Assembly: GCF_903893715.1 (NCBI RefSeq)
Contig: NZ_CAITNG010000139.1
Location: 1-64,000, forward strand
DNA length: 64,000 bases
Reading direction: 5' to 3'
Source of the DNA: an uncultured Mucilaginibacter sp.
GTDB taxonomy: Bacteria > Bacteroidota > Bacteroidia > Sphingobacteriales > Sphingobacteriaceae
Shown here piece after piece: positions 1,666 through 57,075 of the stretch. Every line of letters begins with the position of its first letter. Within the stretch, counting starts at the first letter, position 1. The position numbers and the translations under genes are program-made. The notes beneath the pieces were generated by a model, which saw nothing but the letters and a program-made list of their open reading frames with translations, was not told the DNA's origin and made no database searches.

Positions 1666-2204
1666 TTCAGGTCGGTTAGGTATTGGTGCAGTCTGGTACC
1701 TTCGGGCGGGCTGCAGCGTTTAGAGTTAAGCAAAAAGGCAATGATAGTGCGGATCAAATCCTTTTCGGCGAGGTTATAATTCTTTCTGTCGAGCTGGGTA
1801 ATGATTTCTTCGCGGTCTTCTGCAAGGTTTTTGCCATAACCCAAAAAGCCGGGCACATTGTGCTGAATAGAAAACCTCAAAAAGCGAATTTCGATATTTT
1901 GGGGGTCATCGGCCACGGCCGTAAGCAGCAAACTTTGCGACTGGTTGAGGTATATTATTTTGCTGTAAGGATTCCAGGTTTGTTTGGCCTTCAAGGCATC
2001 CAGGGTGGCAATATAGGCTATGATGACGGGCGATTTGGCCGGTAGCTTGTCGAGGGCGTTGTACAGCGAGTCTGCGGTTTTTTTGTTGTTGGCGGCCAGA
2101 AGCATTTTTTGCCGCAATGGTTTGAGTTCGGGTTGCGGGTCGGCTGCACGGGCCATCGAACCACAGCATAACATCAGGAAACCTAATATCGAAAAGCGTA
2201 TCAT
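1662..2204 (-). CDS. Secreted/periplasmic protein of unknown function in carotenoid operon
   Basis: Signal peptide MIRFSILGFLMLCCGSMARA; overlaps the cyclase gene and the crtB gene by 4 nt each. Confidence 0.75.
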   Translation of the reverse strand: MIRFSILGFLMLCCGSMARAADPQPELKPLRQKMLLAANNKKTADSLYNALDKLPAKSPVIIAYIATLDALKAKQTWNPYSKIIYLNQSQSLLLTAVADDPQNIEIRFLRFSIQHNVPGFLGYGKNLAEDREEIITQLDRKNYNLAEKDLIRTIIAFLLNSKRCSPPEGTRLHQYLTDLK

Positions 2205-3034
2205 AACCTATTCAACTTTTGCTTTAAAACGGCCTTTATGTACAGTGCCATTTTTTGCGTATCAGAAACGCGGATCCGTTTTTGCATTATGGTTGCCGCG
2301 GACGTGCGCCTGATTTTTTTAAAAAGTTGAAGATAGTAAATATAGGCTATATAAACACCAAGGCGTGTGCCTTTGGGCAATTGTTTAATGCCTGCGAGGG
2401 CATTGTCGAAATCGATTTTGATGTCGGCCTCGATGCGTAGCTTGTCGGTTTCGGTGAATTGCTTAAAGTTTACGCCGGGGAAATAGGTGCGGCCAAGGTC
2501 ATTATAATCGGCACTGATGTCGCGCAAAAAGTTGATTTTTTGAAAGGCCGAACCAAGGCTGCGTGCCATGGGCAACAGCTGTTGGTAAAGGGCTTCATCG
2601 CCATCGCAAAACACGCGGAGGCACATGAGGCCCACCACTTCGGCCGAGCCGTAGATGTACTCTTTAAAGCGTTCATCGCAATAGCTGGCATTATCAAGGT
2701 CCATCTCCATGGAATGGAGAAAAGCATATATCAACCCATGATCGATATTGTATCGGTTTACCACGATTTGAAAGGATTGTAATACCGGGTTGAGGCTAAC
2801 GCCGTTGTTGATGGCCGCAAAAGCTTCCTTGCTGAAGTCGGCGATTAGGGAGGCTTTATCAAAACCGTGAAAAGTGTCTACAATTTCGTCGGCATAGCGT
2901 ACAAAGCCGTAAATGGCATAAATGGCGTTATGAAAGCGCGGATGAAAAGCGCGGATGCCTGCGCTAAACGAGGTGCTGTATTCATTGGTGATGATTTTAC
3001 TGCACGCAAAGCAGGTTTTGTTATACAGATCCAT
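2201..3034 (-). CDS. crtB: Phytoene synthase
   Basis: Squalene/phytoene synthase signatures YADEIVDTFHGFD and LRDISADYNDLGRTYFP; start moved to MDLYNKTCFACSKI (3034). Confidence 0.9.
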   Translation of the reverse strand: MDLYNKTCFACSKIITNEYSTSFSAGIRAFHPRFHNAIYAIYGFVRYADEIVDTFHGFDKASLIADFSKEAFAAINNGVSLNPVLQSFQIVVNRYNIDHGLIYAFLHSMEMDLDNASYCDERFKEYIYGSAEVVGLMCLRVFCDGDEALYQQLLPMARSLGSAFQKINFLRDISADYNDLGRTYFPGVNFKQFTETDKLRIEADIKIDFDNALAGIKQLPKGTRLGVYIAYIYYLQLFKKIRRTSAATIMQKRIRVSDTQKMALYIKAVLKQKLNRL

Positions 3035-3137
3035 GTTAGGTAGAGGGAACAGTTGTTCAAATGTAATAAAATAAGTCAGCAACCCTTAACGTGTAATTAG
3101 CACCGGCAATTTGTTTACTTTGGCATGAAGAAAATAT

Positions 3138-4625
3138 ATGGACAACCCTAAACACATAATCGTTATCGGTGCCGGTTTTGCCGGATTGTCGGCAGCCTCG
3201 GTGCTGGCCCAAGCCGGGCATAAAGTAACCATACTCGAGAAAAACGACCAACCCGGCGGCAGGGCCCGTATCTGGCAAAAAGATGGCTTTACCTTTGATA
3301 TGGGACCAAGCTGGTATTGGATGCCCGATGTTTTTGAGAACTATTTCGCATTGTTTGGGAAAAAAGTGTCGGAATATTACCAACTGGAGCGTCTGGACCC
3401 GGCTTACCGCATTTATTATGATGAAGCCGACAAAATGGACATCCCGGCCGACCGGGAAAAACTTGACGAGCTATTTGAAGAAATGGAACCGGGCAGCAGC
3501 GCGGCTTTAGAGCAATTTTTGATACAGGCAAAATATAAATACGAGGTAGCCATGTGTGATTACGTATTCCGCCCGTCGCACTCCATTACCGAATTTATCG
3601 ATATAAAACTCATCCGACAAAGCCTGCGCATACAAATGCTGAGCAGCATGCGCAGGCATGTGCGCAAATTTTTCAGTCATCCAAAACTGATAAAGCTGTT
3701 GGAGTTCCCGGTATTGTTTTTGGGTGCCACGCCACAAAACACGCCGGCCATGTACAGCCTGATGAACTATGCCGACCTGGTTTTAGGCACCTGGTACCCC
3801 ATGGGCGGTATGCACCAAATTGTAAAGGCCATGGTAAGCACAGCTACCGAACTTGGCGTAGATATAAAGCTAAACACTGCGGTAACCAAAATAAACGTGG
3901 ATAAAGGGAGTGCAACAACCATAGATACCAACAATGGCCGCTATACCGCCGATTTTGTAATTGCAGGTGCCGATTACAGGCATGTAGATCAGACACTGCT
4001 TGAAAAACAGTACCGCAATTACGATGAAAAACATTGGGACAGCCGCACTCTATCGCCGTCGAGCTTGCTATATTATATCGGTGTGAACAAAAAAGTGAAA
4101 GGCATACTGCATCACAGCCTGTTTTTTGACGAGGACCTGGAACAGCACGCGCACCATATTTATACCGACCCGCAATGGCCGGACAAGCCGCTGTTCTATG
4201 TTTCCTGTACTTCGGTTACCGACCCCTCCGTTGCGCCGGAGGGTTGCGAAAACCTGTTCTTTTTGATGCCGATAGCGCCCGGTTTGGAAGATAACGAAGA
4301 GACACGCGAAAAATATTTCGAGCTGATGTTGACCCGGTTCGAAAAAATAACCGGACAAAGCATACGCAATAACATTGTGGTGAAACGCAGCTACGCCCTC
4401 AACGATTTTACAGCTGACTATAATTCGTTTAAAGGGAACGCTTATGGCCTGGCCAATACGCTAAGCCAAACTGCGTTTTTTAAACCGGCTATGCGCGCAA
4501 AAAAAGTGAAAAACATGCTGTATACCGGACAGCTCACTGTGCCGGGGCCGGGTGTACCGCCGGCCATTATTTCGGGGCAGGTGGCCGCTAAAGAAGCAAT
4601 GAAAATATTGGACAAAAAAAGATGA
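3138..4625 (+). CDS. crtI: Phytoene desaturase (CrtI family)
   Basis: N-terminal dinucleotide-binding VIGAGFAGLSAASVLAQAGHKVTILEKNDQPGGRA; C-terminal YTGQLTVPGPGVPPAIISGQVAA. Confidence 0.93.
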   Translation: MDNPKHIIVIGAGFAGLSAASVLAQAGHKVTILEKNDQPGGRARIWQKDGFTFDMGPSWYWMPDVFENYFALFGKKVSEYYQLERLDPAYRIYYDEADKMDIPADREKLDELFEEMEPGSSAALEQFLIQAKYKYEVAMCDYVFRPSHSITEFIDIKLIRQSLRIQMLSSMRRHVRKFFSHPKLIKLLEFPVLFLGATPQNTPAMYSLMNYADLVLGTWYPMGGMHQIVKAMVSTATELGVDIKLNTAVTKINVDKGSATTIDTNNGRYTADFVIAGADYRHVDQTLLEKQYRNYDEKHWDSRTLSPSSLLYYIGVNKKVKGILHHSLFFDEDLEQHAHHIYTDPQWPDKPLFYVSCTSVTDPSVAPEGCENLFFLMPIAPGLEDNEETREKYFELMLTRFEKITGQSIRNNIVVKRSYALNDFTADYNSFKGNAYGLANTLSQTAFFKPAMRAKKVKNMLYTGQLTVPGPGVPPAIISGQVAAKEAMKILDKKR

Positions 4626-4693: not shown

Positions 4694-6322
4694 ATGCTAA
4701 GAAGAAACTTCCTCAAAACCGGTTCGATAGCCGGACTTGCCCTACCGGCAGTGTTAGCCGCAGCATGCAGCCCTAAATCAAAAGAAAAAGACGACGATGA
4801 TGGTGAAAAGGAAGACGGTGATGATAAATTTGAGTTAAACGAGACCACTATTGCCGCTTTGCAGGATAAAATGAAAAGCGGCACATACACATCGCGTTCT
4901 ATTTGCGAACTATACCTAAAACGTATGGATGAACTCGATAAAAAAGGACCTAAACTGAACGCGGTTATCGAGTTGAACCCAGATGCTTTGAGCATAGCCG
5001 ATGCTATGGACAAAGAACGTAAAAGCGGTAAATTGCGTGGTCCATTACATGGCATACCTGTTTTAATAAAAGATAATATCAATACCGGCGATAAGATGAT
5101 GACCACGGCCGGCGCCGCCGCCCTTTTGGGCAATCATGCCGCGCAGGATGCCTTCATCGTTAAGCAATTGCGTGCAGCAGGGGCGGTTATTTTAGGCAAA
5201 ACCAATTTAAGCGAATGGGCTAATTTCCGCTCGTCGCGCTCAACCAGCGCCTGGAGCAGCCGGGGCGGGCAAACCCGCATGCCTTACGTGTTGGACCGTA
5301 ACCCAAGTGGCTCCAGTTCGGGCACAGGTTCGGCAGTCGCAGCCAATTTCTGCACCGTAGGCATTGGTACCGAAACGGACGGCTCGGTGGTTTCGCCGTC
5401 GTCGGTAAATGGCCTGGTGGGCATTAAGCCGACCGTGGGGTTATTGAGTCGCTCGGGCATCATACCCATCTCAAAAACGCAGGATACCGCCGGGCCAATG
5501 GCGCGAACCGTTACTGATGCCGCTATACTATTGAGTGCCCTTGCGGGGGTAGACCCTGATGATAGCTATACGGCTGCAAGCAAAGGCAAAAGCCACCCCG
5601 ACTATACTGCATTTTTAGATGCCGACGGGCTGAAGGGTAAACGCATCGGCATCGAAAAATCATTTTTGAAAGGCAATGACGACATTGTGGATGTGCTGAA
5701 AATCGCGATAGAAGTATTAAAAAGCAAAGGCGCTACCGTAGTGGAAGTGGATGTGCTTACCCCTATGAAAGACTTGGGGAAGGATGAGTTTAATGTATTG
5801 ATATACGAGTTTAAGGACGGCGTAAACAATTATCTGGCTAAAGCCAACAGTAACATGAAAACCCTGGCCGATGTGGTAAAATACAACAAGGACAATATTA
5901 AAACCGCTATGCCCTACTTTCGGCAGGAAACTTTGGAGCTGGCTCTTACCAAGGGCGATCTGAACAGCAAAGAATATCTTGATTCGTTAAAAAAATCGAA
6001 CGAAGGTACACGCGCCATCATCAATAAGATAATTGCCGATAACAAACTGGATGCCATTGGCGGCGCTACCAACGGGCTGGCTTGCTGCATCGATTTGGCC
6101 AATGGCGATTATGATACCGGTTTTTCGTTTTCATCGCCGGCGGCCATGGCCGCCTACCCGCATATAACAGTGCCGATGGGAACGGTACACGGGTTGCCGA
6201 TAGGTTTCTCGTTTATGGGAAGTGCGTATACCGAAGGCGAATTGATCAAAATGGCTTACGCCTATGAACAGGCAAGTAAAAAAAGGGTTTCGCCCCGGTT
6301 TATAGAGACGATCATGCCTTAA
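4694..6322 (+). CDS. Amidase (amidase signature family) with RR-type signal/lipoprotein-like N-terminus and acidic linker
   Basis: MLRRNFLKTGSIAGLALPAVLAAAC; KDNINTGDKMMTTAGAAALLG; GSSSGTGSAVAANFCTVGIGTETDGSVVSPSS. Confidence 0.9.
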   Translation: MLRRNFLKTGSIAGLALPAVLAAACSPKSKEKDDDDGEKEDGDDKFELNETTIAALQDKMKSGTYTSRSICELYLKRMDELDKKGPKLNAVIELNPDALSIADAMDKERKSGKLRGPLHGIPVLIKDNINTGDKMMTTAGAAALLGNHAAQDAFIVKQLRAAGAVILGKTNLSEWANFRSSRSTSAWSSRGGQTRMPYVLDRNPSGSSSGTGSAVAANFCTVGIGTETDGSVVSPSSVNGLVGIKPTVGLLSRSGIIPISKTQDTAGPMARTVTDAAILLSALAGVDPDDSYTAASKGKSHPDYTAFLDADGLKGKRIGIEKSFLKGNDDIVDVLKIAIEVLKSKGATVVEVDVLTPMKDLGKDEFNVLIYEFKDGVNNYLAKANSNMKTLADVVKYNKDNIKTAMPYFRQETLELALTKGDLNSKEYLDSLKKSNEGTRAIINKIIADNKLDAIGGATNGLACCIDLANGDYDTGFSFSSPAAMAAYPHITVPMGTVHGLPIGFSFMGSAYTEGELIKMAYAYEQASKKRVSPRFIETIMP

Positions 6323-6591: not shown

Positions 6592-9225
6592 ATGAACCAA
6601 ATAATTACATTATTTGAACAGCAAGCAAAAAAACATGCGACCGACATAGCTGTAAGTTATCATGGGCATCGGCTTACGTACGACCAGATCAACCTGAAAG
6701 TGAATCAATTTGCAGGCTTTTTGATGGAGATGGGCGTCGGGGTGGAAGACAAGGTTGGGATAGCTATCGACCGCTCGCCCGAAATGCTGATTGTAATGTT
6801 GGCCATTTTGAAAGCAGGTGCAGCATATGTACCGCTTGATCCGGAATATCCGCAAAAGCGAGTCGAATATATGTTAGCGGATTCGGAAGCCAGGTTTTTG
6901 GTGGTGTCCACAAAATACAAGGGCCTGTATCATACAAAGGCTACCGAAATATTGCTCTAAGAAGCATGGATTGTTTTAAATAATTATTCAAAACAGAATC
7001 CTGAAATCAAAGCCGAACCCAGTAACCTGGCTTATATACTTTATACTTCGGGTTCTACGGGTGTGCCTAAAGGGGTACAGATAGAGCACCATAGCCTATA
7101 TAACCTATTGCTGAGCGTACAAAAATTGCCGGGGCTCGCAAAAAAGGATAAACTTTTGGCGATTACCACCATCTCGTTCGATATTTCAATCGCCGAGTTG
7201 TTTTTGCCGCTAATAACCGGGGCTGAACTGGTGCTTACCGATTCGGCAACCACGAAAGACGGCAGCGCTTTGCTCGACATCATCAAAAACGAACACATTA
7301 CTTTTATACAAGCCACCCCGGTAACCTTTAAAATCATGCTTGAAGCCGGCTGGGATGGGTTGTTGGACATGAAAGTAGTTTGTACCGGCGAACCTTTGCC
7401 AAAAGACCTTGCCATAAAGTTAACCTCCCGGTGCACAGCTCTATACAATATGTATGGCCCTACCGAGACCACGATTTTTTCGACAGGCAAGCAGATCAAG
7501 GCGACGGACGAATTGATTACGATAGGTAAACCCGTAGACAATACCTTGATTTATATTGTTGGAGATGATGGCCAACAGGTACCCGAAGGGGAAACCGGCG
7601 AAATATATATTGCAGGCGAAGGTGTGGCAAGGGGGTATTTTAAAAAGCCAGATCTGACGGCTGAGCGCTTTGTGGCCGATCCTTTTTCGGGAAATGCGGG
7701 CGACAGGATGTACCGCACGGGCGATTTGGGTAAAGTACTGCCGGACGGGGACATACAGTGCTTTGGCCGGATAGACAGCCAGGTAAAAATACGTGGTTAC
7801 CGTATAGAGCTGAGCGAAATTGAGTTTATACTGAGCCAGCAAAAAAACATAAAAGAAGCGGTAGTACTGTCGCTAAAAAACCGGGCGGGCGACCTTAGGC
7901 TGGTAGCATACGTCGTACAGACATCATCAAAAACCGAAACCGCGGCCACTGAAATACAGGGTTGGAAAGCCGCACTAAAAAACTCGCTTCCCATATTTAT
8001 GGTGCCTAACGATTTTGTATTGCTAGATGCACTGCCCTTAACATCGAACGGTAAAATTGACCGTAATGCGCTGCCTAACCCCGAAATCAATATCGATACG
8101 ACGTTGAGCAGCTATGTAGCGCCGCGTACCAAGCTCGAAAAAATGATTGCTGATATATGGTCGCAATGCCTAAAAGTGGAGAATATTGGCATTAACGATA
8201 CCTTTTTTGATCTGGGAGGGCACTCGCTAACTGCGGTACAAGTGATTACCCGAATTAAAAACGAGACAGGTAAGCGCATACGCTTCGCCAATTTTTTTGA
8301 ATACCCTACTGTTGAAAAAATTGCAGCCTTTTTGGAAAACGACAAAAAAGAGCCTGTTAAATCGTTGGTAGCTATTAAGCCCGAAGGGACAAAAGTACCC
8401 CTGTATATTGTCCATGGAAATGGGTCGACAGCGTTTAAATTTATGAATTTTGCGTACCAATTGGACACCGACCAACCTGTTTTTTGTTTGCAGGCCATCG
8501 GGATAGACGGATACGTAGAGCCTCTGGACAACATCAAAGACATCGCAGCTTCCTACGTATCCGAGGTTATAGCGCACAATCCCCACGGGCCGTATTCGCT
8601 GGCTGGGTACTCATTTGGCGGTATCATTGCGTTCGAAATGGCGCAACAGCTTAGGACGAAGGGCAAAACAGTAACCATGCTTGCCATGTGCGAGGGTTAC
8701 GTTATTGATAACTATCAACTGGAGCCGGGGCTTTACAAAACGCTTCATCGCATTTATACCAGGGGCCGAAAGTTTTTGTTCGGCTTTTATTTACTGACTT
8801 CTGAGCCAAAAAGGACCGTGCGTTTTAAAATAAACACTTTAAAAGCCTACATTAATGAGTTGGCCGGCAAAGAGGTAATGAAAGAAGACAAGCTGGATCT
8901 GGACCTGGAATTTATTGACAAAGTGGCCGAAATACATCACAAGGCTGTTTCCAAGTACCGACTAAAACCCTACGATGGTACAGTTTATGTATTCAGAGCC
9001 GCAAAACGATCATTTTTCATCGACGATTTTGTCAATTTGGGGTGGATACCTTACGCCCGTTCCGTTAAAGTTCTGGATATTGATGGCGAACATATGAGCA
9101 TATTTGAACCGCCATGGAACAAAAAATTTGCGCGCTTACTACAACAAACACTGGATGAGTGCAATAAAGGATTGGTTTATGAGTCCGCAGCAGGTTATCA
9201 AAATATACCGGTAGCGGTATTATAA
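6592..9225 (+). pseudogene. Single-module NRPS-like enzyme, adenylation-thiolation-thioesterase (A-T-TE), interrupted by an in-frame TAA at 6958-6960
   Basis: 6592..6960 and 7063..9225 are in the same frame; the 6961-7062 gap is open (EAWIVLNNYSKQNPEIKAEPSNLAYILYTSGSTG). Motifs: A3 LYTSGSTGVPKG, A5 YGPTE, A7 YRTGDLG, A8 GRIDSQVKIRGYRIELSEIE, A10 NGKIDR, T GGHSLTAVQ, TE GYSFGG. Confidence 0.9.
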
Positions 9226-9276: not shown

Positions 9277-9816
9277 TTAGTCTTCTTCGGCGTACGCCGC
9301 TTTTTTAACGCCGTTATCGTACGGTTTCAAGCTTTTCTTTAACAGCTTACGGGCTACGTGGATGCGGGTTTTTACCGTCCCTATCGGTATATCCAAATGG
9401 TCGGCTATTTCGTGGTATTTATGCCCTTCAAAATACATGTTGAATGGAACACAATAATCCGCCGGAAGTTTGTCCATCGCCCTTTTGATGTCGTCCATAA
9501 CAAACTTTGTTTCACCTTGGTTTTTTGTTGAGCTGTATACCAGGTTGGGTGATGATATCTCGTCACTCTTGGTAACAAAAGTGCTCATTTTAACAAAACG
9601 GCGATAATTGTTAATGAAAGTATTCTTCATGATGGTATATAACCATCCTTTTAAATTAGTGCCTTCTTTAAACTTATTGTAATAAGTGATAGCCTTTAGT
9701 ATGGTATCCTGCACCAAGTCGTTGGCATCATCTGCGTCGCGAGTAAAGTGCAGCGCGTATGACCTCAATGAACCTGCCTGCCTTAATACCATGGTGTTAA
9801 ATTCGATCTTAGTCAT
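9277..9816 (-). CDS. ECF-type RNA polymerase sigma factor (sigma-70 family)
   Basis: DADDANDLVQDTILKAITYYNKFKEGTNLKGWLYTIMKNTFINNYR (region 2); HEIADHLDIPIGTVKTRIHVARKLLKK (region 4). Confidence 0.92.
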   Translation of the reverse strand: MTKIEFNTMVLRQAGSLRSYALHFTRDADDANDLVQDTILKAITYYNKFKEGTNLKGWLYTIMKNTFINNYRRFVKMSTFVTKSDEISSPNLVYSSTKNQGETKFVMDDIKRAMDKLPADYCVPFNMYFEGHKYHEIADHLDIPIGTVKTRIHVARKLLKKSLKPYDNGVKKAAYAEED

Positions 9817-55023: not shown

Positions 55024-56025
55024 ATGAAAATAAAAATATGGCTTTGTTTGGGTATTGGCTTGTTTTGCGCGAAGCAGGACCTTGCACAACTTGGCAACGT
55101 GTATTATTTTAAAAGTTACGGGGAAATCTTTAATGTAGAAGTTAAAACTAAAGATAGTGCCGATTTTGTACGCGTGGTGACAGAGCCTGATTCGGGCACA
55201 ACGTTGTACAACATTTCAGAATATTACAAAAATGGTAAACGCAGACTAATTGGAAAAACATCAACGGTAGCGGGTACGATGTTACAAGGATACTGTATCA
55301 ACTTTTATCCTAACGGCAAAAAACAACAAGTTGCAAACTATGTAGATGGCCAAATGCATGGCGATGTATTCACCTACTATCCCAATGGCGCAATATATGT
55401 GGTAAAGGAATACACTCCCGGTATTCTCGTCCCGCAATATAACCTTTTGAAGAGTGATTCGATAATCAAGGCTTGCTATGATTCAACGGGCAAAGCCTTG
55501 GTAACCGACGGTAGTGGATATTATATTGGATATACAAAAGATTTTAAAAGCATTTTTGAAGAAGGTAATATCAAATCGGGATTAAAGGATGGTAATTGGA
55601 AAGGATTGGGAGAAGTTGATAGCAGTAAAATAACATTTATCGAAAGCTATCAGAATGGTAAATTGGTTGTGGGACAAGCAACCGATCTGTCTGGAAAAAT
55701 TTACAGTTATTCAGAACGTGAAACGCCTGCAAATTATGACGGCGGCATGGAAAAATTTTACAATTTTCTTGCGAAGAATATTCACTATCCCAAGGCAGCT
55801 AAAGAAGCCGAAACTCAGGGTAAGGTGATGTTGCAGTTTAATATTGACAAAGATGGCTCATTAGGAAATATTAATGTTCTGCAGTCGCCAGGCAACGGTC
55901 TTGCCGAGGAGTCTGTTCGCGTTTTAAAAATGACTCCAAAATGGATACCTGGACAAAAATTTGGTCAAATAGCTAAAACCTTATTTATCATACCGGTTAA
56001 TTTTACTTTTAGCGCGATAAAATAA
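55024..56025 (+). CDS. Secreted MORN-2 repeat protein with C-terminal TonB_C-like domain (paralogue 1)
   Basis: FYPNGKKQQVANYVDGQMHGDVFTYYPNGAIY; C-terminal YPKAAKEAETQGKVMLQFNIDKDGSLGNINVLQSPGNGLAEESVRVLKMTPKWIPG. Confidence 0.85.
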   Translation: MKIKIWLCLGIGLFCAKQDLAQLGNVYYFKSYGEIFNVEVKTKDSADFVRVVTEPDSGTTLYNISEYYKNGKRRLIGKTSTVAGTMLQGYCINFYPNGKKQQVANYVDGQMHGDVFTYYPNGAIYVVKEYTPGILVPQYNLLKSDSIIKACYDSTGKALVTDGSGYYIGYTKDFKSIFEEGNIKSGLKDGNWKGLGEVDSSKITFIESYQNGKLVVGQATDLSGKIYSYSERETPANYDGGMEKFYNFLAKNIHYPKAAKEAETQGKVMLQFNIDKDGSLGNINVLQSPGNGLAEESVRVLKMTPKWIPGQKFGQIAKTLFIIPVNFTFSAIK

Positions 56026-56031
56026 TTGTTT

Positions 56032-57075
56032 ATGCAGAAGCGCATTACTCAACTCGTTATTTTTTCGCTGCTGATGTTGGTGTTGCCCAAGATTACTTTC
56101 GCGCAGCGTGGCGATATATATTATTTAAAAAACTCGGGCAAAATTGTGGGCACTAAAGATAGCGCTGATTTTGTACGGGTGGTAACCGAGCCTGATTCGG
56201 GCACTGTGCTGTTTAATGTTGAAGAATATTACCCCAACGGAAAGTTAAAAATGAAAAGCAAAATAAGTTCACCCGCTACGTTAAGTTTCGAGGGGCCATA
56301 CATTAGTTTTTATCCATCGGGCAAAAAGCAAATTATAGCTACTTATAAAAACGGACTGCCTGATGGCGACATTTATACCTATTACCCCAACGGCAAATTA
56401 TATACCATCGCCAAGTATATATCACAAAAAACGGCAACCGGTTATTCATCATATTTTTATAGTATACAAACAGCCAAAGATTCTACTGGTAAAACAACCG
56501 TTACCGACGGAAATGGTTATTTTGTTCATTATTCGGACGATTTTAAAATTGTATTAGATGAGGGCACATTAAACGATGGGATACCTCAAGGCAAATGGAA
56601 AGGCACCCGTAAAACCGCAAATGGAAACGAAAATTATAGCGAAACTTATATCAACGGCGTGCTATTACCGGAACATTTTCAGTATAATATGATGGATAAC
56701 ATAGCCCAGACCCTAAAAAGCCCTCCAGATAAAACAGGCGAAGAAGAGATGGCCGCTTACAACAATGACCCTAACGCCAATCCCATTTTCGATGGTGGGA
56801 TGCAAAAGTTTTATAACTTCCTTGCAAAATATATTTTCTACCCGAATGCAGCAAAAGAAAACGGCACTCAAGGAAAAGTTATCTTGAAGTTTACTGTAAA
56901 TGAAGATGGTACACCAAGCGACGTGGTTCTTTTCCAAGATCCAGGCGACGGTCTTGGCAAAGAAGCGTTACGTGTTTTCAAACTTGCGCCCAAATGGCTA
57001 CCGGGTAAAAAAGATGGGCGGCCAGTGAAAAAGGAGATGACCATTCCTGTAAATTTTACTTTAAACGACCGATAG
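56032..57075 (+). CDS. Secreted MORN-2 repeat protein with C-terminal TonB_C-like domain (paralogue 2)
   Basis: Same layout; YPNAAKENGTQGKVILKFTVNEDGTPSDVVLFQDPGDGLGKEALRVFKLAPKWLPGKKDGRPV. Confidence 0.85.
   Translation: MQKRITQLVIFSLLMLVLPKITFAQRGDIYYLKNSGKIVGTKDSADFVRVVTEPDSGTVLFNVEEYYPNGKLKMKSKISSPATLSFEGPYISFYPSGKKQIIATYKNGLPDGDIYTYYPNGKLYTIAKYISQKTATGYSSYFYSIQTAKDSTGKTTVTDGNGYFVHYSDDFKIVLDEGTLNDGIPQGKWKGTRKTANGNENYSETYINGVLLPEHFQYNMMDNIAQTLKSPPDKTGEEEMAAYNNDPNANPIFDGGMQKFYNFLAKYIFYPNAAKENGTQGKVILKFTVNEDGTPSDVVLFQDPGDGLGKEALRVFKLAPKWLPGKKDGRPVKKEMTIPVNFTLNDR

Follow-up and report, generated by a model that had tools for sequence, protein, structure and literature searches.

The locus at 6592-9225 of the window (the whole 64,000-nt stretch of DNA from a Mucilaginibacter, a soil bacterium, that was analysed) raises the question of whether an NRPS-like gene carrying one in-frame TAA has been inactivated, is still used despite the stop, or is intact in the organism and misread in the assembly. 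A sequence-only reading had described two ORFs lying in one frame, separated by a single nonsense codon without a frameshift and followed by more than 700 intact codons. The translation agreed with this description: 6592-9225 reads in a single frame as 122 residues, the TAA at 6958-6960, 754 residues, and a terminal TAA at 9223-9225. The probability that 754 codons remain open by chance is near 6e-20 at the local base composition. The parts of the gene are as follows.

6592..9225, + strand: whole interrupted A-T-TE (adenylation, carrier, thioesterase) NRPS-like gene, 878 codons with both stops counted, the internal one and the terminal one
6592..6960, + strand: part 5' of the stop, coding for 122 residues that form the N-terminal piece of the adenylation domain (AMP-binding 1-100 in Pfam) and end short of A3
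6958..6960, + strand: internal in-frame TAA, in a column that is acidic in 80/86 homologues with a residue there
6961..9225, + strand: part 3' of the stop, 754 sense codons comprising the remaining A domain, the carrier domain and the thioesterase
7042..7074, + strand: A3 core YTSGSTGVPKG, containing GTG 7063 (read from the sequence)
8212..8229, + strand: carrier-protein motif LGGHSL, including the phosphopantetheine serine (domain match and translation)
8605..8622, + strand: thioesterase nucleophile motif GYSFGG (domain match and translation)
Near residue 834: candidate catalytic His of the thioesterase, within DGEHMSIF

Both halves belong to one contiguous adenylation domain. In the domain search, the stop divided Pfam AMP-binding (PF00501) into profile positions 1-100 before it and 154-384 after it, and NCBIfam TIGR01733 (amino-acid adenylation) was likewise divided into 1-89 and 110-409, so that the two halves cover complementary parts of the same models, and they align to one intact ortholog. 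The 102 nt past the TAA read as adenylation sequence into A3, as had been stated. A structure-relative search returned the same enzymes for the sequences before and after the stop, with the linear gramicidin synthetase LgrA at the top. AMP-binding is followed by AMP-binding_C, PP-binding (PF00550) and Thioesterase (PF00975), and the A3, carrier and thioesterase motifs 3' of the stop are all intact. The gene thus has the amino-acid-type adenylation domain, the carrier serine and the thioesterase GxSxG (GYSFGG) of an A-T-TE gene. An uninterrupted frame is found in the ortholog from Mucilaginibacter rivuli and is lacking in the window gene (TAA 6958-6960).

The A domain retains the Asp of the FDxS motif. 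In NRPS adenylation domains this residue is a hint of an alpha-amino acid substrate, and since it is kept here, the predicted substrate is likely an alpha-amino acid. The domain search found no condensation domain in the A-T-TE protein or anywhere in its genome, which encodes two phosphopantetheinyl transferase-family genes; because of these two features, the enzyme would be expected to work alone. In the intact enzyme, the substrate would be loaded onto the carrier, and the thioesterase would free the product from it. No second copy of the gene was found in the same genome.

The closest relative came from M. rivuli HMF5004 (L037 5632-8235, also G024): an uninterrupted protein of 867 aa with 77-78% identity. 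The window frame aligned to it free of gaps across 864 aa, and a frameshift in place of the nonsense codon was thereby ruled out. The M. rivuli gene resembles the window gene in its start, its domain order and its flanks (phytoene desaturase and sigma factor), whereas it has no internal stop and its C-terminus is 10 aa shorter. The remaining homologues across 150 Mucilaginibacter genomes showed identities of 58% or less; no sequence from the same species, that is, no ortholog nearer than that of M. rivuli, was present among these 150 genomes, and none was present in viral contigs. Other Mucilaginibacter and Pedobacter A-T-TE proteins of about 880-900 aa share the architecture of the window gene at 49-58% identity; their genes are sited elsewhere than at the window locus, those examined were intact, and in several genomes they share a contig with NRPS genes whose open frames run to about 2,200 and 1,345 codons. 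The possibility of two independent genes or of a known split family was ruled out, as no homologue was split at this place. Many Mucilaginibacter genomes also carry, on one contig, three A-domain open frames of ~890, ~2,220 and ~1,345 codons (e.g. L012 / G055:C16:109240-125701 and G005:C347), the first of which is an A-T-TE frame related to the window gene.

The gene lies beside carotenoid genes, with the following neighbours.

985-1665, - strand: lycopene cyclase
2201-3082, - strand: phytoene synthase
3138..4625, + strand: CrtI-type phytoene desaturase, a flank conserved in the genus
4694..6322, + strand: amidase, 3' of the carotenoid desaturase and 5' of the A-T-TE gene, missing at the M. 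rivuli spot
9277..9816, - strand: ECF-type sigma factor, a flank conserved in the genus at about 90% identity
13960-14400, - strand: fatty acid hydroxylase family gene, which may be a carotenoid hydroxylase

In the genomes examined besides that of M. rivuli, the A-T-TE gene is missing between the desaturase and the sigma factor, and at L147, L150, L151 and L156 the sigma factor directly follows the desaturase. Since the spot is empty of the A-T-TE gene in these genomes, the gene is, as judged from gene order, a lineage-specific accessory insertion beside the carotenoid genes. The M. rivuli locus differs from the window in that no amidase separates its desaturase from its A-T-TE gene; the desaturase-sigma factor interval therefore seems to collect accessory genes. 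Farther along the window, 55024-57075 holds two end-to-end genes in one frame, both with TonB_C and MORN_2, which look like a tandem duplicate, not a broken gene.

The codon at the stop was then compared with those of the relatives. Asp or Glu occupied the stop column in 80 of the 86 homologues having a residue there, and the stop was absent from the same place in all 114 relatives' loci checked; the few stops seen among these 114 loci occurred only at or past the C-terminal end of the match. M. rivuli also has an acidic residue in this column, and its codon is one substitution from TAA, in line with the single-base origin that had been proposed. No further stop or indel was found beyond the TAA in the 754 codons. 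If these codons have been neutral since the stop arose, the neutral divergence accumulated since then would be less than about 0.032-0.045 substitutions/site from stops alone, and the bound falls to about 0.01 substitutions/site when indels are assumed to be 10% of substitutions. The dN/dS-type ratio against M. rivuli was low throughout, at 0.11 before the stop and 0.17 after it, where synonymous sites are saturated. At conserved sites, defined as those conserved in at least seven of nine outgroups, unique changes after the stop numbered 18 in the window gene versus 11 in M. rivuli (p=0.26), no significant excess, and neither relaxed selection nor extra lesions after the stop were detected; such rate tests average a long intact history and have low power for recent events because synonymous sites are near-saturated. 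Such an absence of decay would be expected only of an allele that is very young, or of an error.

Based on these results, we consider that the gene is a recent nonsense allele, an ordinary loss-of-function mutation at codon 123, with a probability of roughly three in four (0.74). A recent pseudogene or strain mutation, which were among the options listed by the sequence-only reading, is backed by the intact syntenic ortholog, the acidic stop column and the undetectable decay elsewhere. Translation from ATG 6592 would end after 122 residues and yield an inactive fragment, since both the substrate pocket and the ATP-binding loop of A3 lie beyond its end, and the 3' part would have no plausible start for a working adenylation domain. 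The gene is thus most likely null in the window strain. The event appears to be very recent, or else an error, and the stop probably represents variation at the level of the strain or the population, since it seems too young for other damage to have followed. Lone nonsense codons are a common feature of the accessory biosynthetic genes of bacteria, and the TAA here does not look like a new biological mechanism. A survey of in-frame stops of bacterial genes indicated that their persistence is, for the most part, that of polymorphisms within populations, and it demanded that a stop be shared between genomes to set errors aside (PMC7918605); the window stop, seen in no relative, lacks such sharing.

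The alternative that the TAA arose through an error in the consensus or the assembly, the gene being intact in the organism, is unlikely, although it is the most serious competitor of the recent nonsense allele. A single base is the sole lesion of the gene, the assembly is a 161-contig draft (4.02 Mb), and an error would equally give a total lack of other decay. However, a search of about 447 kb of this genome, with about 450 ORFs, turned up no second same-frame nonsense break, and the stop site is not a homopolymer. This search was an ORF-pair test, as a codon-usage scan was too insensitive and missed even the A-T-TE locus; the other neighbouring pairs in one frame, both those at wider spacing and those checked within the window, belonged to different Pfam families or were tandem full-length paralogues. 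In the comparison with the M. rivuli contig, which covered 17 orthologous ORFs, an interruption was seen only in the A-T-TE gene. Because a generally poor consensus would show extra breaks, a real mutation is modestly favoured over an error.

If the mutation is real, the stop might still be read through at some rate, giving a low level of full-length enzyme, possibly in a regulated manner. The sequence 3' of the stop is conserved as coding sequence is, and certain bacterial in-frame stops have been argued to be tolerated (PMC7918605). This conservation is no sign of present use, since it predates the stop. Furthermore, the stop is found at that place in no relative, none of the 42 tRNA genes in the genome reads TAA (anticodon TTA), and TAA is the commonest stop, ending 206 of the 331 long ORFs in the 447 kb sampled; in 38 of these 206 ORFs the TAA is followed by G, as it is at 6958-6960. 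The readthrough listed by the sequence-only reading was consequently disfavoured by the unshared stop, the absence of an ochre suppressor tRNA and the use of TAA as the main stop, and we regard it as very improbable. Termination followed by restart, producing two polypeptides in which a split adenylation domain is complemented, together with T and TE, is more improbable still. Both parts are open and well conserved, but the first listed start downstream, GTG 7063, lies within A3, where it codes for the V of VPKG; initiation there would delete the ATP-binding loop, in agreement with the earlier judgement that such a start is implausible for a working enzyme. The first in-frame ATG is located 125 codons past the stop, and no homologue is split where the window gene is interrupted. 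A restart product would therefore have no A3 loop, barring a rare start codon just 3' of the stop. Even taken jointly, a functional readthrough product and a split enzyme have little likelihood. It is comparably far-fetched that sense and stop alleles are kept as an on/off or low-dosage switch, or that a leaky TAA provides trace full-length enzyme or complementing halves.

The general significance of the broken gene is little. At this locus, gene callers will give two unrelated ORFs, and it is the intact M. rivuli copy that reveals the enzyme. An orphan A-T-TE enzyme situated beside carotenoid genes, in a genome without a condensation domain, could be assayed via this intact ortholog. Among the papers searched, none joined Mucilaginibacter, nonribosomal peptide and adenylation domain.

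Among known systems, LgrA (PDB 6mfz) is the nearest solved relative of the A and T domains, for the sequence before the stop as well as for that after it. Unlike the window gene, LgrA is multi-module and has condensation domains, of which the window genome has none. The NRPS-like A-T-TE synthetases, such as quinone and furanone synthetases, that were studied in PMC12105029 and PMC10316625 are fungal enzymes whose substrates are aryl-pyruvic acids. They share with the window gene the three-domain A-T-TE layout and the absence of a condensation domain, whereas the window A domain differs from theirs in fitting the amino-acid adenylation model and in having the FDxS Asp.
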